Shown: positions 661 to 8,596 of the stretch, one piece after another | How positions within the stretch are numbered: the first letter of the stretch is position 1 | Layout of the letters: each line of letters opens with the position of its first letter | Assembly (NCBI GenBank): GCA_005877535.1 | Contig: VBOM01000223.1 | Location: 1-8,596 of the forward strand | DNA from: Nitrospirota bacterium | GTDB lineage: Bacteria; Nitrospirota; Nitrospiria; Nitrospirales; Nitrospiraceae | Length of the DNA: 8,596 nucleotides | Direction of reading: 5' to 3' | Position numbers and translations under genes: made by a program | The notes under the pieces: model-generated | Database searches by the model: none | Told to the model about the DNA's origin: nothing | The model's input: only the letters and a program-made list of their open reading frames with translations

Positions 661-793
661 GGGAAGATACTCCGCGCCGACGTCATATGATAGGGATCTG
701 GCCGGTCTTGCGCACCTACGTTTGATAGCTTCCTACGCAGTTGTTAGGTTTTCGGCGACCTATGCGATAGCCCGTGCGCACCCATCTCATTCT

Positions 794-832
794 GGCTGGC
801 GTAGCTCAATGGCAGAGCAGCAGTTTTGTAAA
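794..832 (+). pseudogene. tRNA-Thr 5'-half duplicate
   Basis: These 39 bases match 3605-3643, the start of the intact tRNA-Thr(UGU) gene, at 38 of 39 positions (A at 822 versus G at 3633). The copy includes the acceptor 5' strand GCTGGCG, the whole D-arm, the 5' anticodon stem and the TTTTGTAA loop with anticodon TGT. Homology ends abruptly after the anticodon loop: the 3' anticodon strand, T-arm and CCA end are missing. There is no recognisable promoter at the right distance upstream. A stem-loop with a T-run follows 20 bases later. It cannot make a functional tRNA. It looks like the scar of recombination inside the anticodon loop, a common crossover point for tyrosine integrases, or of a segmental duplication. 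Confidence 0.85.
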
Positions 833-852
833 TCTGACCGAGACGAAAGGCC

Positions 853-885
853 CCTTGGAATCCTCTATGGTTTCAAGGTTTTTTT
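853..885 (+). terminator. Rho-independent terminator
   Basis: CCTTGGAA (853-860) pairs with TTTCAAGG (871-878), with one G-T pair and a ten-base loop, and is followed by seven Ts (879-885). This is a textbook intrinsic terminator on the plus strand. The nearest upstream element is the tRNA half-copy at 794-832, so any transcript of that copy would end here as a short RNA of about 90 bases. Confidence 0.75.
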
Positions 886-1108
886 GTGATCTCATAGGGT
901 GACGGAGGGTGGCAGAAGGTAGTATAAAGCCCCGTCAGGCACAACGATGGACACAACATTCCTCCTTGGTCGCGCAGCACCAGCGCCCGTTCGGGACAAC
1001 CGGGGGAAGCCAACACTCAGCGGATGTTTGGGCTTGCGTCCCCGTAAGAGCATGTACCTCTGACGCATTCCCTATGGTGGCTATCCCAATCTGTCTCTAT
1101 AACACGAT
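886..1108. other. Intergenic, no convincing gene
   Basis: On the plus strand a 38-codon frame (ATG 947 to TGA 1061-1063) lacks a good ribosome binding site. On the minus strand AAGGAGG at about 970-976 precedes a GTG that opens only a 20-codon frame ending near 897. Neither can be called a gene from the sequence alone. The region is simply the downstream flank of the zinc-ribbon gene. Confidence 0.35.
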
Positions 1109-1297
1109 TTATCCCGCATCATCGCTTCCCGTCCACGGACAGTCATCGCACATGGCCAACCCATTGATCCCCTGCAGGGCAATGGAACCGCAATGAGGAC
1201 AATGCGGAACTATTTTCATCAAATCTTCTAGCTCTCTCATCAAGGCTGGTTCGAACTCTCTCATCCAGACTGAGTCAGTGCCTGGTAATTTCTTCAT
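1109..1297 (-). CDS. Small zinc-ribbon protein
   Basis: The product is 62 residues long and starts at ATG 1297-1295, with AGAAGG upstream at a normal distance. The N-terminal half (residues 11-30) is a charged helix. The C-terminal half carries two CxxC knuckles, C33-P-H-C36 and C50-D-D-C53, separated by 13 residues, the layout of a rubredoxin/zinc-ribbon fold that binds one Zn or Fe. Such small proteins often act as nucleic-acid or protein adaptors, but no partner is visible here. It is the last of three small minus-strand genes (1109-2925), each with its own ribosome binding site and wide spacing, so they probably do not form one operon. Function unknown. Confidence 0.65.
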   Translation of the reverse strand: MKKLPGTDSVWMREFEPALMRELEDLMKIVPHCPHCGSIALQGINGLAMCDDCPWTGSDDAG

Positions 1298-1639
1298 GAT
1301 CTACCTTCTTGTAAGGCTTATGAGAAGGATCGACCCCGCCCTCAGAGGAAGTCAATTATATATATTAAGGTCGTCGGAGACCGAGCAACTAAGGGGCACC
1401 CTTGGTTAAAGGGCGCGCTTTGCCTCGTCCTGCTGCCCGCGACGTACAGGCCTCGTGAGCCTGGCGCGACACATACCACTAGTTCCCCTTTCGGGCCTTG
1501 CCCCGTCGTTCGCATCGCTCCTCCAATATGCCTCACTGCGAGGCCCCATGCCCTTATCGATTCGCCCCAACCGTCGCTTTCTTGTGCAATGTGCCGTCAC
1601 GTACCTCGCAGAGGATCTGGGATTCAGTCAACCTGCGTT
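1298..1639. other. Structured intergenic region with hairpins
   Basis: There is no gene here that I can support. A very stable stem-loop lies at 1387-1407: AACTAAGGG pairs with CCCTTGGTT, nine pairs (one T-G) around a three-base GCA loop. It is followed by the near-palindrome AAAGGGCGCGCTTT (1408-1421) and a smaller hairpin, CAGGC/GCCTG (1447-1463). Positions 1496-1593 hold copy A of a diverged repeat described separately. Overlapping frames on both strands across this region lack ribosome binding sites and give low-complexity Arg/Ser-rich translations. Confidence 0.5.
1496..1593 (+). repeat. Dispersed ~98 bp repeat, copy A
   Basis: This segment aligns over its whole length with 2584-2681, at roughly 75-80 percent identity by hand alignment with one or two single-base gaps. 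Shared blocks include CCGTCGTT, the run around CAATA-GCC, CCCATGCC, TCGATT and GCAATGTG. It lies about 45 bases downstream of the stop codon of the minus-strand gene 1640-2020. In the plus reading direction after ATG 1548 the peptide keeps the pattern MP-SI-P--RF--QC but has Arg where copy B has Cys, so a metal-binding function, if any, is lost in this copy. Confidence 0.65.
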
Positions 1640-2020
1640 TTAGCCTACCCGGAGTGCTTCAGCTCGGCGCCGAACCTCTTCGGCCTTTTGCGATTGTCCG
1701 AGGTTGTCGTAGAGTGAGGCGATATTCGCATGCAAGTGCGACAAGAGTTGTCCCAACTGTGCTTCCTGTGCAATCACATTCGCTTCGAGCGCCAGTTTCT
1801 TTTCTTCACTCCGTCGGAAACGCTCCTCAAGCCGCTGCACGAGTTGGATCCAGCCTTTGACCTTGCCGGAATCCAACTCAGGGAGGGGCGGCAAGGCTTC
1901 ACCGCGATCGAGAGATTTTTCAGTTTGATTGATCCATTTGATGAAGACGAGAAAATCACCAAGCGTAATTTGAAGTGCGGATGAGGCGCCATCTTCTTCT
2001 TCGATCACCAGGTCTTCCAT
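1640..2020 (-). CDS. Helical TPR-like small protein, unknown function
   Basis: The product is 126 residues long, starting at ATG 2020-2018 with AAGGAG five bases upstream (an excellent site). The N-terminus is acidic (residues 2-10, EDLVIEEED), followed by a hydrophobic helix (residues 17-30), a Pro-rich linker (42-50) and a long amphipathic helical stretch (55-122) rich in Glu, Arg and Leu. Residues 95-122 match the tetratricopeptide pattern (ANIASLYDNLGQSQKAEEVRRRA), so a single TPR or coiled-coil interaction surface is likely. There is no signal peptide, so it is presumably cytoplasmic. A copy of the dispersed repeat follows its 3' end. I do not recognise a named family. Confidence 0.75.
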   Translation of the reverse strand: MEDLVIEEEDGASSALQITLGDFLVFIKWINQTEKSLDRGEALPPLPELDSGKVKGWIQLVQRLEERFRRSEEKKLALEANVIAQEAQLGQLLSHLHANIASLYDNLGQSQKAEEVRRRAEALRVG

Positions 2021-2042
2021 TACAACTCCTTGTGAAGCAAAT

Positions 2043-2463
2043 TAATTCGAGTAGTGTGCGGCAGACGAACGAAATACTTCTGCCAAATTGCCGTTGAAGC
2101 TTTCTGTTACCGGCCTCTGAAAAGCGAACAACGCGCCGAGATCAAAACGAGCCACCTCCTTTCCATTCCATGTATGGTTTTTGACGAGAACCTGAGAGCA
2201 GGTCCAAGAGTGGGCACCCCATAGGCTACACCCAGTGGCCTCGGAGTCGAACAGCGTATGTCACTGCACCATCAGGCAGGGCCCAGCGGAGCGTCGCCTA
2301 GAATTTATTAGTCGTCGGTTGTCATGTTTATCATGACATCGGTTCGTAGGTGTGACGTATAGCCGAGTCGTGCTCGAAGCCCTATCGACACACTTAGTAT
2401 TTTTCTGTCGAATCGATACAAGCAGCATTATCATAATTTGTACGACAGAGGCGGGAGAGGGGT
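2043..2463. other. Intergenic region with perfect dyad
   Basis: This gap has no well-supported gene. On the minus strand AAGGAG at about 2156-2161 directly abuts GTG 2155-2153, which opens a 37-codon frame ending at TAA 2042-2044. The frame reads like protein and stays open upstream to about 2260, but the spacing between site and start is wrong, so it may be a degraded gene. TGTCATG (2320-2326) and CATGACA (2332-2338) form a perfect seven-base inverted repeat around TTTAT, which looks like a regulator binding site rather than a terminator because no T-run follows. Confidence 0.4.
2320..2338. promoter_or_regulatory. Perfect inverted repeat, possible operator
   Basis: TGTCATG and CATGACA are separated by five bases, so the half-site centres lie 12 bases apart, close to one helical turn and suited to a dimeric regulator. 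AT-rich DNA flanks it. No regulator gene is nearby and the target gene is unclear. Confidence 0.35.
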
Positions 2464-2583
2464 GTGTTGCGAACAACTGTTAGCTCACCGGACTTGAGGG
2501 AATATAGACCGCACATGGACGGACTGGAGTATCGGCGGCGGCTGGCGCTTCGATTGAAGCGACCTCAGAGGCTCGGTTGTGAC

Positions 2584-2681
2584 CCTTGAGCCGTCGTTGC
2601 ATCCCCCCTACAATACGCCCCCTGAGAGACCCCCCATGCCGTTCTCGATTTGTCCCTACTGTCGTTTTCCGATGCAATGTG
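2584..2681 (+). repeat. Dispersed ~98 bp repeat, copy B
   Basis: This is the partner of 1496-1593. It ends about 35 bases beyond the stop codon of the minus-strand gene 2716-2925, the same placement as copy A relative to its gene. On the plus strand ATG 2636 opens a 22-codon frame to TGA 2702-2704 with a CPYC knuckle and a further QCG, like one half of a zinc ribbon. No ribosome binding site precedes it. A hairpin, CGCTTC/GAAGCG with a GATT loop (2546-2561), lies just upstream. A 41-codon plus-strand frame (GTG 2464 to TGA 2587-2589) preceded by GGGAG overlaps the left end, but I do not consider it established. Confidence 0.6.
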
Positions 2682-2715
2682 GGAGGGAAGTTGGCGACCA
2701 TTGATCGTGTTGGCG

Positions 2716-2925
2716 CTAGGGTAAGTTGTTGGTGTTGTGTGGCGTGTCTCTTAGCGAGACTTCTTCTTCATCGTTCTCCTCCAAGGTATTCTCGATGGCT
2801 TCTAACTCTGCTATCGTCTGCGAGAGGCGTTCTTTCTGCTCCCCGTCTATACTCTCCATAAGGTCTTCCAATAAGGCCAGCGCGTTACTCATTGTTCTGC
2901 GGATCTGTGCCTGTGCGCTCATCAT
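2716..2925 (-). CDS. Small acidic coiled-coil protein
   Basis: The product is 69 residues from ATG 2925-2923, chosen because AAGAGG lies eight bases upstream. A second ATG follows immediately, and the frame stays open to an ATG at 2970, but the extra residues have no ribosome binding site. Residues 5-55 form a continuous amphipathic helix with heptad-like Leu/Ile spacing (LALLEDLMESI ... LSQTIAELEAIENTLEEN), predicting a coiled coil. An acidic patch and a polar tail rich in Asn and Thr follow. There is no signal peptide or enzyme motif. It is probably a small oligomerising cytoplasmic protein. Family not recognised. Confidence 0.65.
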   Translation of the reverse strand: MMSAQAQIRRTMSNALALLEDLMESIDGEQKERLSQTIAELEAIENTLEENDEEEVSLRDTPHNTNNLP

Positions 2926-3212
2926 GGCTCGAACCTCTTTGGTTGTGGGGTGGTGGGCATGGCGCACCACAATGATGATAGGCCCAAGGCGTGGCTGCTG
3001 CCCACCCTACAGAGGAGTGGGTTCGATATGGCACACAGACTCCCCTAGACAGGAACCGTACAGTTCTGGGGGTCTCCCAGCGGCCATTGCAGAATAGCCC
3101 CAAGACTATCCCCCCTCCGAACTACTTCCTTCTGGTCTTTCGCCCCACGCCCCGTGCGCTATTCTTCTCACAAAGCTGGCGTTCACAGGCTGAATTGCAA
3201 GGAGGCGTCATC

Positions 3213-3443
3213 ATGACCAATCTACGCGCGCTTGTCGGAGCAGGCTTTCTGCTTGCCGTCATGGGGATCGTTGTTTCAGTCCCGCTTGGTTGGACCATTA
3301 TCCTCGGTATTGGCGAGGCCTATCCAGAGAAGATCATCAAGGGCCGACCCTACCAGTGGAACGATCAGTTGGTGCCGAAGAAGATTCTTCCGCGAACCAC
3401 ATATGGGCAGATCGGGTACAAGATTGAGCCGAAGCAGAAGTAA
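3213..3443 (+). CDS. Small membrane protein with one helix
   Basis: The product is 76 residues long, starting at ATG 3213 with AAGGAGG nine bases before it. The frame is open further upstream, but that part is low-complexity and has no better start. Residues 7-33 form one long hydrophobic segment (VGAGFLLAVMGIVVSVPLGW then TIILGIG), a membrane anchor or uncleaved signal. Residues 34-76 are polar and basic (KIIKGRPYQWNDQLVPKK), ending in KIEPKQK. A short N-terminus followed by the helix suggests an anchored protein whose tail lies on one face of the membrane. A GC-rich inverted repeat (CCGCC/GGCGG, around 3478-3495) follows, without a T-run. Function unknown. Confidence 0.75.
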   Translation: MTNLRALVGAGFLLAVMGIVVSVPLGWTIILGIGEAYPEKIIKGRPYQWNDQLVPKKILPRTTYGQIGYKIEPKQK

Positions 3444-3567
3444 CCTTATCTAGAAGGGGGCTGATCCTTTGCCGGCGCCGCCGTGGGAATGGCGGAGGAG
3501 GTAGACGAACGGGCTCTTGAGGGACTTTTGGCGAAGAGCCTTCTGGGCACACTCCCCTCCGCGTCGG

Positions 3568-3597
3568 TTGACATCGTCCACGTAAGTGGGTGATATT
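3568..3597 (+). promoter_or_regulatory. Sigma-70 promoter of tRNA-Thr
   Basis: A perfect TTGACA (3568-3573) is spaced 18 bases from GATATT (3592-3597, four of six consensus matches). Transcription would begin around 3604-3606, right at the tRNA 5' end. No comparable element lies upstream of the truncated copy at 794. Confidence 0.65.
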
Positions 3598-3605
3598 CCT
3601 CGAAG

Positions 3606-3680
3606 GCTGGCGTAGCTCAATGGCAGAGCAGCGGTTTTGTAAACCGCAGGTTGGAGGTTCAATTCCTCTCGCCAGCTCCA
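3606..3680 (+). tRNA. tRNA-Thr (anticodon UGU)
   Basis: The 75-base gene folds fully. Acceptor stem GCTGGCG (3606-3612) pairs with CGCCAGC (3670-3676), seven perfect pairs, followed by discriminator T and an encoded CCA (3678-3680). The D-arm is GCTC/GAGC. The anticodon stem GCGGT/ACCGC encloses loop TTTGTAA, giving anticodon TGT, which reads ACA threonine codons. The T-arm is GGAGG-TTCAATT-CCTCT with one G-T pair. A U discriminator is allowed for bacterial threonine tRNAs. The 5' half is duplicated at 794-832. Downstream sequence holds a repeat and a decayed PIN gene, consistent with this tRNA being an integration target. Confidence 0.96.
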
Positions 3681-3713
3681 CAGTTTCAGCATTTTGTTGA
3701 TTCCTAAAACATA

Positions 3714-3734
3714 AAAGGTAACGCCAAAGGTAAC
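3714..3734 (+). repeat. Short direct repeat AAAGGTAAC downstream of tRNA
   Basis: AAAGGTAAC occurs at 3714-3722 and again at 3726-3734, a 12-base period, 34 bases past the tRNA CCA end. In the frame of the PIN gene it would read KVTPKVT. Short tandem repeats next to a tRNA 3' end are what one expects of integrase arm-binding or attachment sequence, but that reading is inference. Confidence 0.4.
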
Positions 3735-3750
3735 ACGAGGAGAGCCCCCC

Positions 3751-4682
3751 ATTTCTGACAGCCAACCCGCCTCCTCCTCCCCTCCTTCGGTACGCGTCGA
3801 GGTGAACCCCACTGACCCTGATGGTATTGTCCATATACGGTATGACGACACACGACCGCCCCGAGTCTTCTTCGATACCAATGTCATTCTCGGGTTAGGC
3901 GATGCAGGCGAAGCCGCGCTCCGCCGCTTAAAAGCCGAGCGCTGGTTTCGTTTTCGTTTCTCTACGTTGAACTTTGTCGAATTGCTGTCCCACCTTGGCG
4001 ATGTACCCACGAAAGAAACCGCCAACCCTTTTGAGAAATACCGCGCGGCATTCCGGCGTGTCTATAACCTCTTTGATGGCGTGTTGCCATCCGCCGAATC
4101 CGTGCTCATGCACGGTGTCGGACTTAAGGAGTACACAGGAAAGATGTGGGTCGTCGATGCGGCGGCATTGAGTACCAGGTCAAGGTGATCGCACAAGCGG
4201 ACTCGCTCGGGGATGTGTTGACGGCGGGCATAAACCCCGCCCATTATAAAAAGTTGCGAGCGATAGACGCCACGTCGTTTCTCGGGGTCGTGGCCGACGC
4301 GCGAAACACGATCGCAGATCCCGTCAAGGACTTGGAAGCTGGCGGGCGCCTACTCCGACGCTTCTACGGTTACTTGATTTTTCGAGCGAGCAACGAGGCG
4401 ATCCTTTTTGGAAAACTACCTGACGACCAACAACTCGCTGTGATCGCGTTTTTCGAACAGGCGGGCGGCAAGATGTTCGTGAGCCACTTTGTGAAAGTGC
4501 TTATTCGGATGATATGTGACGGCGCGAAAGATGACGCCAACGATTTCTATGACATGCTGCAACTACTTTTGCTGGCAGACACTAATCTTCTATTTGTGAC
4601 CGATGACCGACCATTTTTTCAATACTATGTGGGGGCTGAGCACCACCGCATAGTCCGATGGCAAAGATTCAAAGACAGCTAA
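3751..4682 (+). pseudogene. PIN-domain ribonuclease-like gene, frameshifted
   Basis: Two overlapping frames together encode one protein of about 300 residues. The first (open through 3751-4188, clear from GTG 3802) carries RVFFDTNVIL, the first acidic strand of a PIN domain (Asp25 counted from GTG 3802), and the STLNFVELL segment with Glu60. The second (ending at TAA 4680-4682) carries NDFYDMLQLLLLADTNLLFV and TDDRPFF, the remaining acidic residues. The frame breaks at about 4165-4171; one extra G there would restore Asp-Ala-Ala-Ala-Leu-Glu-Tyr. PIN proteins are Mg/Mn-dependent RNases, often toxins, but no antitoxin gene is adjacent and the protein is longer than VapC. GAGGAG (3737-3742) lies eight bases before ATT 3751, so the original start was probably there. 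It is a pseudogene unless the shift is a sequencing error. Confidence 0.75.
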
Positions 4683-5962: not shown

Positions 5963-7141
5963 ATGAAAAATAAAATGGTGGTATTCGGAGTCGGACTATT
6001 TCTTGCTTTGCTGGTACCAGTCAACTTGACTATGGCAACGGAGGTTAAATTACATATTGCCCCGGTGTTTCAGGAACGCCCTAGTTGGTGTTGGGCAGCC
6101 GTTGGCGAGATGGTCTTCAAATACTATTACGTTCCCGCTGCTCATCGAACAGACTATCAGTGTGGGATCGTACAGGGTCGAAACCTTTGCATGGGAATAC
6201 CGAATTGCGTTCCATGTGATCTCTCAGCTGGTGATGCAGCCACCATGGTTAACATGCTTGAACAGTATCCTTTACTGGCTACACCGGGCGGTACGGCTGG
6301 AGATATTGCGCTTACAGCTCAATCGAAGAGCGGAAGCCTTTCTGAGGTAGAAGTGAAAAAGGAGCTAGATGAGGGCCGTCCTATTATTGTTGGAATTTCA
6401 CCGCCTGGGTTCAAGGTAGATGGCACACCTCAACATATGGCCCTCATAGTTGGCTATGATGATAGCTCCGACGACTTGATGCTAACCGTGAATGATCCTT
6501 TCCCCTACGAAGACATGCGTTTTCTCTGGATAGGGAATGCGTATCTAAGCGCGCGCGCATCAGGAGGAAGTGATGGCGAATATGAGATCGGTTATGAAGC
6601 ATTTCGGTTAAGGCTAAAGTGGACCCAGACAATTTACCGAATTACCTGTACAGGCCATGGTTGTCCATCCGACAACCACCAAGTAGCCGATGGCTCCGCT
6701 GGGAAAGACGACCGTGATGTGACTCAAACCGTTCTAATGGCATCCTCTGGTGATTTCAAAACTTTAAGAACAGGACATAAAGCTGTCGATGCTGATAGCG
6801 GTACAACATGGCAGTCAAAAGTTACCTTTCCCGGTGCTAAGCAGTGCCTAGTGAGGGACAAAGACGATTATAATGGAGCCAGGTGGAGTTGCATATTCAG
6901 ATTTGCAGACAGGTCGGAAGCCGACAAATCGGTAGAGGATATAGTTAACCGATTGCGCAACAGCTTACCTCATGGTTGGATCGGGAAGGATCTTAATGAG
7001 GACTCTGACACCGAGTCTTATACCAAGACAGACAAGTTTTCTGCATATAAACCTGGAAATGACTCGCTTATCAGAGTTTACTTAACTGACACCAAGAAGG
7101 ATGGGCGGGTCAAGATTTATCTTTCCGTGGATAATAATTAG
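5963..7141 (+). CDS. Exported papain-like cysteine peptidase (C70/C39-like)
   Basis: The product is 392 residues long; ATG 5963 follows AGGAGAGG at good spacing. Residues 1-25 are a signal peptide (KNKM, hydrophobic core, probable cut after TMA25), so the protein acts in the periplasm or outside the cell. Residues 28-220 form a papain-like fold: Gln37 (oxyanion hole), Cys43 within SWCWAAVGEM, His158 in QHMALIVGYD and Asn177-Asp178 in VNDPFP, the order seen in AvrRpt2-type C70 and C39-like peptidases. Cysteines 67, 76, 82 and 85 may form disulfides. Residues 228-392 are an additional domain with four cysteines (229, 234, 295, 310) that I cannot assign. No ABC transporter or bacteriocin precursor is nearby, so a peptide-maturation role is not supported. 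Its base composition looks more AT-rich than the flanking genes, suggesting acquisition by transfer. The target protein is unknown. Confidence 0.85.
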   Translation: MKNKMVVFGVGLFLALLVPVNLTMATEVKLHIAPVFQERPSWCWAAVGEMVFKYYYVPAAHRTDYQCGIVQGRNLCMGIPNCVPCDLSAGDAATMVNMLEQYPLLATPGGTAGDIALTAQSKSGSLSEVEVKKELDEGRPIIVGISPPGFKVDGTPQHMALIVGYDDSSDDLMLTVNDPFPYEDMRFLWIGNAYLSARASGGSDGEYEIGYEAFRLRLKWTQTIYRITCTGHGCPSDNHQVADGSAGKDDRDVTQTVLMASSGDFKTLRTGHKAVDADSGTTWQSKVTFPGAKQCLVRDKDDYNGARWSCIFRFADRSEADKSVEDIVNRLRNSLPHGWIGKDLNEDSDTESYTKTDKFSAYKPGNDSLIRVYLTDTKKDGRVKIYLSVDNN

Positions 7142-7364: not shown

Positions 7365-8596
7365 CTAACGTTCGGCTTCCGTGAGATCGCCCTCCTCTTC
7401 CAGCTCTTCAAGATCGGCTTCCGCTTTGGCCTTTAGTGTTGAGGGGTGAAGACCATATTTTTTGAGCATTTTGTAGAAGTCTGCCCGATAGCGTCCTGCA
7501 AATTGGGCGGCGCGTGAGATATTGCCGCCGGTGAGTTGCAGTACATTCTTGAGATAGGTTTTCTCAAACTCTTCCTTTGCTTCAGTCAGTGGCTTGAGCG
7601 GCGCTTCCGGTGATGTGCCCATAGAGGGTAAGAGGTCCGGCGTAATCATGTCTTGGCGCGTCATGACGGCGGCCTTTTCTACGACATTTTCCAATTCTCG
7701 GACATTTCCCGGCCAGGGGTGCGTGACCAGCCGATTGAGGGCGGCCGGTGTAAAGCCGCGCAAGCTTTTATTCGCTCGCTTCGCACTCGAGATCAGGAAC
7801 TGTTGGGCCAACAAGGGAATATCATCTCGGCGTTCACGAAGCGGTGGGATAAACAGTGGGACGACAGAGATGCGGTAGTACAGATCGTTCCGGAATGACC
7901 CGTTTTTGACCGCTTCGCCGAGGTCCTTATTGGTCGCGGCGATTATCCGTACATCGATCTTCGTCGAGATTTCTGAGCCCACTTCCCGGACTTCCCTTTC
8001 CTGCACGGCCCGCAGCAGTTTGACCTGCATCGAAAGCGGTATTTCGCCAATCTCGTCAAGAAATAGTGTGCCGCCGTTGGCGCTTTGAAACAGGCCTCGC
8101 TTGGCACCATGGGCGCTGGTAAACGCGCCGCGCACATGTCCGAAGAGTTCAGACTCAAAGAGCGTTTCGGGAATGGCCGCGCAATTGAGGGCGACAAACG
8201 GTCCTTTACTCCGTCGGCTGTTCGAATGGATCACGCGTGCGAACACTTCTTTGCCGGTCCCGGTTTCTCCAAAGAGGAGAATGGTCGCGTCCGAGTCCGC
8301 CACCTGCACCACCTGTTGGAGTATGCGCTGCATCGCAGGACTTCGTGCGACGATGTTTTCCATGCCGTACAATTCGTTGACGAGAGACTTGAGCCGCTGG
8401 ATCTCTCCTCTCATCCGCTGCGGAGAAAGCCCTTCTTCGATCTTGGCCTTCAGTTCCTGGTCATCGAACGGTTTGGTGAGATATCCGACGGCCCCCCGCT
8501 GCATGGCTTCCACGGCATTGGGGATGCTGCCGTGGGCCGTCAGGATGATAACCGGAAGGCCTGGATGAATCCGTAGCAGTTCCTCCGTCACATCTA
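7365..8596 (-). CDS. Sigma-54-dependent response regulator, GlrR-like (5' end cut)
   Basis: The C-terminal ~410 residues of an NtrC-family activator are present; the gene runs off the right edge, so the phosphorylated Asp of the receiver lies outside. Counting from GTG 8591, residues 1-55 are the end of the receiver domain, with conserved Thr18 (ILTAHG) and Lys40 (YLTKPF). Residues 78-315 are the AAA+ domain: Walker A GETGTGKE (108-115), sigma-54 contact loop GAFTSA (155-160), Walker B GTLFLDE (174-180), AATN (218-221), arginine finger region FRNDLYYR (233-240) and WPGNVREL (293-300). Residues 340-382 form a Fis-type helix-turn-helix (GGNISRAAQFAGRYRADFYK) whose form closely recalls GlrR/QseF. 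When phosphorylated by a partner histidine kinase it would drive open-complex formation by sigma-54 RNA polymerase. The kinase gene is not in view. An acidic tail (EADLEELEEEGD) ends the protein. Confidence 0.95.
   Translation of the reverse strand, partial: DVTEELLRIHPGLPVIILTAHGSIPNAVEAMQRGAVGYLTKPFDDQELKAKIEEGLSPQRMRGEIQRLKSLVNELYGMENIVARSPAMQRILQQVVQVADSDATILLFGETGTGKEVFARVIHSNSRRSKGPFVALNCAAIPETLFESELFGHVRGAFTSAHGAKRGLFQSANGGTLFLDEIGEIPLSMQVKLLRAVQEREVREVGSEISTKIDVRIIAATNKDLGEAVKNGSFRNDLYYRISVVPLFIPPLRERRDDIPLLAQQFLISSAKRANKSLRGFTPAALNRLVTHPWPGNVRELENVVEKAAVMTRQDMITPDLLPSMGTSPEAPLKPLTEAKEEFEKTYLKNVLQLTGGNISRAAQFAGRYRADFYKMLKKYGLHPSTLKAKAEADLEELEEEGDLTEAER

Follow-up and report, generated by a model that had tools for sequence, protein, structure and literature searches.

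The closest described counterparts of the locus analyzed here are the 5′-fragment islands of Islander, which make up 159 of 3919 islands and have an intact tRNA gene at one end, a displaced 5′ fragment of it upstream in the same orientation, a tyrosine integrase and a crossover of the anticodon-loop class (PMC4383910). Tandem arrays of islands at a single tRNA gene are also known, with 125 arrays of two or more (PMC4383910). The stretch of DNA that we analyzed, referred to below as the window, comprises 8,596 nucleotides and corresponds to contig VBOM01000223.1 (C33 in our numbering) of a Nitrospirota bacterium, the genome of which is 79.8% complete. It contains an intact tRNA-Thr(TGT) gene and, upstream of it and in the same orientation, a fragment corresponding to the 5′ half of that gene, with a putative mobile element of 2.8 kb between the two. 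A preliminary description of this DNA, made from the sequence alone, had called such geometry unusual, and the Islander frequency bears this out. As in the Islander cases, the empty site amounts to the fragment plus the 3′ half of the gene, and the half-to-half length of the element, 2811 bp, falls within the Islander range of 2–200 kb; the interval 833–3643 contains no integrase gene, so that the window alone would fail the Islander integrase filter.

Several other systems share individual features with this locus. In classical 3′-half integration, which related integrases of the two families described below (A and B) also perform, the integrase likewise lies beside the rebuilt tRNA gene, but the tRNA points the other way, retains the host promoter and receives its 3′ half from the element. 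Tycheposons, reportedly described by Hackl et al. in 2023, are said to be tRNA-associated elements with tyrosine recombinases, and one report likewise presents them as tRNA-associated and as using tyrosine recombinases (PMC10872708). For archaeal integrases of the pTN3/TKV4 type, the rebuilt tRNA gene is described as having lost its connection to the original promoter, with expression now coming from the side of the element (PMC8371274, PMC5495485), as we propose here, and this kind is stated to be “seldomly encountered in bacteria” (PMC8371274). In those elements, however, the integrase gene itself harbors the attachment site and is broken in two on integration, whereas in the elements considered here the integrase frame terminates upstream of the tRNA and remains intact: five complete frames of 364–373 aa end 13–31 nt before the tRNA. 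Integration of ICEKp1 at tRNA-Asn similarly rewires the transcription units of tRNA and integrase, but as a mirror image, in that the element drives int from the promoter of the host tRNA, the terminator of which it displaces (PMC13023037). In tRNA-dependent lysogeny, the phage also supplies what the host tRNA locus loses, but it carries a whole tRNA gene and the host tRNA is not rebuilt (PMC10865867), unlike the tRNA of the window.

Thus, 5′-fragment islands are already known, as is promoter exchange in archaeal elements of the pTN3 type (PMC8371274, PMC5495485). The main text of the Islander study contains neither the word promoter nor the word terminator and describes no promoter inside an integrase tail (PMC4383910). 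At the level of titles and abstracts, in a search that left most subscription journals outside its reach, we found no precedent for a promoter in an integrase tail, a terminator-capped half or layered replacement in one lineage. What appears to be new here is a promoter, as predicted, within the integrase tail, an abandoned half capped by a terminator-like hairpin, and the probable serial replacement of individual tRNA genes within a single lineage.

Origin of the half-tRNA fragment

We interpret the fragment as the front half of the original tRNA-Thr(UGU) gene, which an insertion of 2.8 kb (833–3643) separated from the back half. On this view, the insertion is probably the work of a tyrosine integrase with crossover in the anticodon loop, and it rebuilt the gene by contributing a front half of its own together with a predicted promoter; we place the probability of this interpretation at about 0.92. 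The comparisons that carry it concern the empty site in relatives, the native sequence upstream of the fragment, the foreign sequence upstream of the intact gene, a remnant of an integrase gene, and complete related elements at several tRNA genes, and from them we infer the recombination event.

Positions 794–832 are identical to positions 3605–3643 at 38 of 39 bases, a match with a chance expectation within the window of ~7e-18 under uniform base composition; 38 of the 39 matched bases belong to the tRNA and one is the base preceding it. The sole mismatch, A822 versus G3633, falls in the anticodon stem, and similarity halts at A832, one base beyond the anticodon loop. The fragment is, as originally described, a copy of the 5′ half of tRNA-Thr, with homology ending just past the loop. 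Among the 26 listed matches to window positions 740–860 from the same genus (own genome excluded), 24 likewise stop at 831–832, and the remaining two continue because they share the sequence that follows the fragment. The locus can accordingly be divided into the abandoned and displaced 5′ half of tRNA-Thr(TGT) (795–832, plus strand), which has a single base change, at 822 in the anticodon stem, and represents the left attachment junction, and the restored intact gene (3606–3680, plus strand), the sole copy found in the genome. On the basis of the tRNA call and the joined-flank comparison below, the restored gene consists of an element-supplied 5′ half (3606–3643, plus strand) and the host 3′ half (3644–3680, plus strand). 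The suggestion that the crossover took place in the anticodon loop stands insofar as homology ends there at several tRNAs, which makes such a position probable; the exact crossover base is unreadable from the shared stretch of 38 nt.

To reconstruct the empty site, we joined window positions 700–832 to 3644–3680 and aligned the result to 10 loci from the 15 genomes with a native tRNA-Thr gene. At all 10 loci compared, the joined sequence aligned in one piece through the junction, with the best alignments reaching 91.9% identity over 149 nt (G017), 88.3% over 162 nt (G027) and 86.9% over 168 nt (G024). The filled flanks behaved differently: the right flank (3481–3680) matches native loci only from the tRNA, or 2 bases earlier, onward, and the left flank only as far as 832. 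Because the native relatives align in one piece to the joined flanks and are devoid of 833–3643, this segment is an insertion that provided tRNA-Thr with a new 5′ half, as the preliminary description had proposed from the two copies alone; we annotate it, without assigning a strand, as an inserted element that includes the new 5′ half and has lost most of its integrase. The region upstream of the fragment (700–793, plus strand) is, by contrast, native. It contains the genus-conserved block CAGTTGTTAGGTTTTCG, which also precedes the intact tRNA-Thr gene in the 15 native genomes (0 mismatches in 11, 1 mismatch in two and 4–5 mismatches in two), and window positions 722–832 are 89% identical to the corresponding G017 sequence.

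Ends of the element and its relatives

The intact tRNA-Thr gene is preceded by the 3′ end of an integrase gene (3543–3593, plus strand), of which only the last 16 codons are left, reading LGTLPSASVDIVHVSG before the stop, compared with LGTLPSPSVDIAHVSR in the integrase of G031:C200. At the DNA level, positions 3544–3680 share 93.4% identity with the terminal part of the G031 integrase locus and 95.6% with G006. In related loci, an integrase (PF00589) is encoded upstream on the strand of the tRNA, with the stop codon separated from the tRNA by 31 nt (G029), 15 nt (G031) and 15 nt (G006) at tRNA-Thr, 18 nt at tRNA-Arg(CCT) (G030), and 15 nt (G029) and 13 nt (G020) at tRNA-Met. Among the 34 distinct right ends with this geometry (5′-type, as opposed to the 3′-type of classical elements) in which the stop codon is readable, 32 have it 13–32 nt before the tRNA, one at 5 nt, and one overlaps the tRNA by 7 nt (−7). 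The integrase that the preliminary description recommended looking for in related elements is thus found directly upstream of the restored tRNA, and the window, where just its last codons survive, is taken to hold a decayed copy of the element, because the complete elements of relatives hold an integrase gene. In G031:C200 (L035:7761-9978), a tandem pair of integrase genes precedes the restored tRNA-Thr, the second alone abutting the tRNA.

The integrase tail overlaps a predicted sigma-70 promoter of the restored tRNA (3568–3597, plus strand), with TTGACA and TGATAT separated by 17 nt (the best choice of the scan was GATATT at 18 nt) and with the predicted −10 element overlapping the integrase stop codon TGA (3591–3593). 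With a pass defined as 10 or fewer of 200 shuffles scoring as well, the window score was reached by 0/200 shuffles, and all 11 distinct tRNA-Thr right ends were matched by at most 4/200. Overall, 16 of the 36 distinct 5′-type right ends passed, compared with one of the 16 right ends of 3′-type elements. The earlier proposal that the element restored the tRNA through a new 5′ half with its own promoter is supported by these results, the half by the flank comparison and the promoter, as a prediction, by the shuffle-tested scan; the region upstream of the restored tRNA would accordingly act as its promoter.

In attachment sites of lambda-type heterobivalent tyrosine integrases, a core is combined with arm sites and an IHF site, and candidates for each are present here. 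An IHF-like site, TAAGTGGGTGATA (3583–3595, plus strand), differs by 1 mismatch from YAANNNNTTGAWW, a consensus that was relaxed after looking; under this post hoc relaxation, the motif occurs with at most one mismatch in 30/36 5′-type right ends (1.6 expected) and 7/16 3′-type ends (1.1 expected), mostly 21–25 nt before the tRNA in the former. On the right, sequence comparison identifies an arm-like repeat GGGCACA (3545–3551, plus strand), the single copy left of a pair; on the left, the direct repeats AGGCACA and GGACACA with 12-nt spacing (937–955, plus strand) are placed comparably to the GGGCACA pairs of tRNA-Met elements. Upon inspection of seven elements, namely, six of the complete ones introduced below and the window, candidate paired repeats on both sides were clear in four (G032, G057 and the two tRNA-Met elements), examples being the GAGAACACGCCGGGAACAC repeats of G032, located at +169 and −72, and the GGGCACA pairs of the two tRNA-Met elements; in G171, G194 and the window, the pairs are weaker by eye, and those of the window are partial. 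These paired repeats look like integrase arm sites.

At the left end, the abandoned half is followed by a hairpin resembling an intrinsic terminator (853–885, plus strand), with stems at 853–862 and 869–878 and a T run at 879–885, the scan score of which was equaled by 0/60 shuffles. The left-end module is common to insertions at tRNA-Thr, -Met and -Arg: in the family to which the left end of the window belongs, a hairpin follows the half in 8/8 copies, located at these three tRNAs and at one unassigned degenerate site, and the scan beats 60/60 shuffles in each copy, the G026 copy being weak. Across the eight homologous left ends, the 12-bp helix has 94.7% of its cells paired and three pairs changed on both sides, a level reached by 3/500 shuffles. 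We suggest that the terminator insulates the element against the abandoned promoter. Alternatively, the half-tRNA and terminator could constitute a selected small RNA gene of the element, for example, a decoy or a regulator, with the swap of halves being secondary. The double-sided changes in the helix directly after the half in all eight left ends of the family would fit such a gene, as would the attachment-site layout of the circular element, in which promoter, half and terminator would be joined as a short unit. This explanation is nevertheless improbable, given that the halves are subject to decay (a single mutation in that of the window, heavy decay in G006 and a decayed Arg half in G004), that seven left ends of other families have no significant terminator, and that the terminator is explained simply by the shielding of element genes from a strong tRNA promoter.

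Less probable still is a classical 3′-side insertion, with the 5′ fragment a by-product of a later rearrangement. tRNA-Thr is indeed also targeted by classical elements, as judged by two or three 3′-half copies in seven relatives, and an antisense frame that leads out of the 3′ end of the tRNA has, by eye, the look of a degraded integrase tail of the classical type; yet a single 3′ half was found in the window's genome, even with up to 3 mismatches allowed, the joined-flank test favors insertion on the 5′ side, and the possible classical remnant sits on the other side of the gene. A tandem duplication of tRNA-Thr followed by deletion of the 3′ half of the first copy, with no integrase involved, would match the two same-orientation copies 2.8 kb apart and the lack of an integrase gene in the window, but it is as improbable as the classical insertion, considering that native sequence precedes the fragment whereas an integrase tail precedes the intact copy, that the sequence directly after the fragment recurs behind 5′ halves of other tRNAs, and that native relatives hold one tRNA at the empty site. 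The 3′ side of the tRNA in the window (3681–3760), with this antisense frame and the repeats AAAGGTAACGCCAAAGGTAAC, resembles the terminus of a second element of the classical kind.

Complete elements with a 5′ half without mismatch (37–42 nt) at the far end were identified in seven relatives and at four tRNAs: at tRNA-Thr in G171 (6.9 kb) and G240 (27.5 kb), at tRNA-Arg(TCT) in G032 (19.3 kb), at tRNA-Arg(CCT) in G194 (7.1 kb) and G057 (11.0 kb), and at tRNA-Met in G029 (15.6 kb) and G020 (14.8 kb). The G032 element encodes a replication initiation protein and a protein of the Zot family, which in filamentous phages is the assembly ATPase. The G020 tRNA-Met element, which at ~15 kb is satellite-like in size, encodes a protein that weakly matches primase and AAA and another that weakly matches terminase. 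For the four tested reading frames of the window's element, there were no Pfam matches above the curated cut-off. Within it, 1544–1593 and 2632–2681 form an 80% repeat, and L034, L038 and L043 contain similar sequences, that of L043 being located immediately upstream of the right end. Two integrase scans of viral contigs yielded 9 and 3 loci; in 3/12, a tRNA on the opposite strand lies at the integrase end, and none of the 12 contains a free attachment site (attP). The locus nearest to family A, L239, is 71% identical, with similarity halting at the integrase stop codon.

Elsewhere in the window, a response regulator gene (7365–8594, minus strand; NtrC-like by eye) is matched 3′ of the tRNA in five relatives (L037, L039, L044, L046 and L049) and hence represents a host neighbor. 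Two overlapping frames (128 and 178 aa) at 3802–4682, neither with a Pfam match, give the impression of a single gene interrupted by a frameshift, and 5963–7141 encodes a 392-aa protein with a match to C39/C70-type papain-like peptidases and, by eye, a signal-like N-terminus.

Integrase families and probable repeated insertion at tRNA-Thr

To place the integrases, we built a tree of 57 of the 72 candidate loci, after dropping short rows, rows with stops and duplicates. It consists of two well separated families, A and B, each with 5′-type and 3′-type members; 26 of the tree integrases are 5′-type, 18 are 3′-type and 13 are without a tRNA, and the labels require at least six changes on the tree. 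The 5′-type arrangement is not confined to Nitrospira, because L161, from a Desulfosarcina assembly, is a 5′-type member. In a survey of eight genomes of the genus, covering 86 of 104 PF00589 matches, 34 integrases had no nearby tRNA, 8 lay beside tRNA-Val, 33 were 3′-type, 10 were 5′-type, at −7 to 31 nt from the tRNA, and one was 70 nt away (search width −90 to 300 nt for the 3′-type and −10 to 150 nt for the 5′-type); the ratio of 10:33 is biased upward, as the genomes were picked for tRNA-Thr insertions. Nine of the 19 initial 5′-type calls of this survey were dropped, namely, the eight recombinases beside tRNA-Val, which we take to be Xer from their presence in each genome, and the one at 70 nt.

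Some single tRNA genes have an integrase on either side, one in 5′ and one in 3′ geometry (tRNA-Arg(TCT) twice and tRNA-Thr(CGT) once), namely, in G031:C89 (L079, L265), G008:C148 (L261, L291) and G006:C255 (L080, L305), the 5′-side integrase of the last being 70 nt from the tRNA. The window's genome has two further likely 5′-type sites: in G000:C386 (L242), an integrase overlaps the first bases of tRNA-Pro(TGG), with no tRNA-Pro 5′ half found on that contig, and in G000:C15 (L245), integrase pieces precede tRNA-Arg(TCT).

A tRNA-Thr 5′ half could be obtained, in the loci used, from 23 of 32 genomes of the genus. In 15 of these, an intact gene follows the native block (in two loosely, with 4 and 5 mismatches), and in six, it follows an element-type upstream region. 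The remaining two, G008 and G025, have the native block with a half only, the 3′ half being located on a short contig stretch in G008 and absent from G025. Insertions at tRNA-Thr thus occur in 8/23 genomes with data. In G006, G031 and G029, the element's own predicted promoter is itself followed by a half, and because of this, a later insertion likely displaced an earlier one in these genomes.

Several observations weigh against the interpretation developed here or narrow its reach. The evidence is entirely comparative and derives largely from metagenome-assembled genomes, and the window's own contig has no PF00589 match. A far-end 5′ half was found in only 5/20 upstream stretches, four at first and that of G240 after seven were extended by a further 20 kb, five of the 20 stretches having ended early at contig ends; none was found at four further loci examined for such a copy. 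Two exact-pattern scans of viral contigs, combining the half with the left end, gave 0 matches to an excised circle or attP. The terminator scan was significant in 0/7 left ends of other families, out of 15 left ends tested in all. The placement of a promoter in the integrase tail does not extend to all 5′-type ends, because only the 16/36 mentioned above pass, distributed as 11/11 for Thr, 4/8 for Arg(CCT), 1/2 for Met, 0/12 for Arg(TCT) and 0/3 for others. In G030, which has an element-type tRNA-Thr, no half was seen, and in G029, the orphan Thr half with the element promoter (C25 at ~156.5 kb, L040) and the intact gene (C37 at 182.6 kb, L039) are on different contigs, which suggests a rearrangement or an assembly break. 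Finally, the rejoined native gene is still called as tRNA-Thr by ARAGORN despite the mutation in the half, which argues against dependence of the host on the element, discussed below.

Proposed mechanism and implications

In the mechanism that we propose, the attachment site of the circular element would comprise, in order, the integrase tail with arm-like repeats, the IHF-like site and the promoter, the tRNA 5′ half, the core, the hairpin or terminator, and the second pair of arms. Integration would pass the element's promoter to the tRNA, and the host promoter would be left with half a tRNA to drive, closed by the terminator in the family of the window. The geometry probably flips easily between the 5′ and 3′ types, because the anticodon arm is nearly symmetric and because related integrases use tRNAs in the opposite, 3′-half orientation. 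Later insertions could in turn orphan the promoter of an earlier element. The host of the window likely now depends on the promoter and half of the element, because the integrase has been lost and the abandoned half bears a stem mutation. A broader scenario, which we put forward tentatively and rate at somewhat less than even odds, is that phage- or satellite-like elements of Nitrospira serially capture single-copy tRNA genes, with the 5′ half and promoter being replaced from the 3′ coding end of the integrase, the old promoter being insulated by a terminator, and the exchange becoming permanent once the native half mutates, so that essential tRNAs would come to rest on layered integrase tails; we do not rate it higher because ARAGORN accepts the rejoined native gene.

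tRNA genes are classic docking sites for mobile DNA, and in the usual account, the host promoter is kept; here, the promoter appears to change hands repeatedly. For annotation, an integrase frame on the same strand that ends within ~35 nt of the 5′ end of a tRNA suggests the right end of an element, the left end of which would be a 5′ half-tRNA. Related integrases that act in both orientations provide a natural series for testing how target orientation flips, and the same series bears on how a change of promoter is tolerated by an essential tRNA gene and on how a mobile element may become indispensable to its host.
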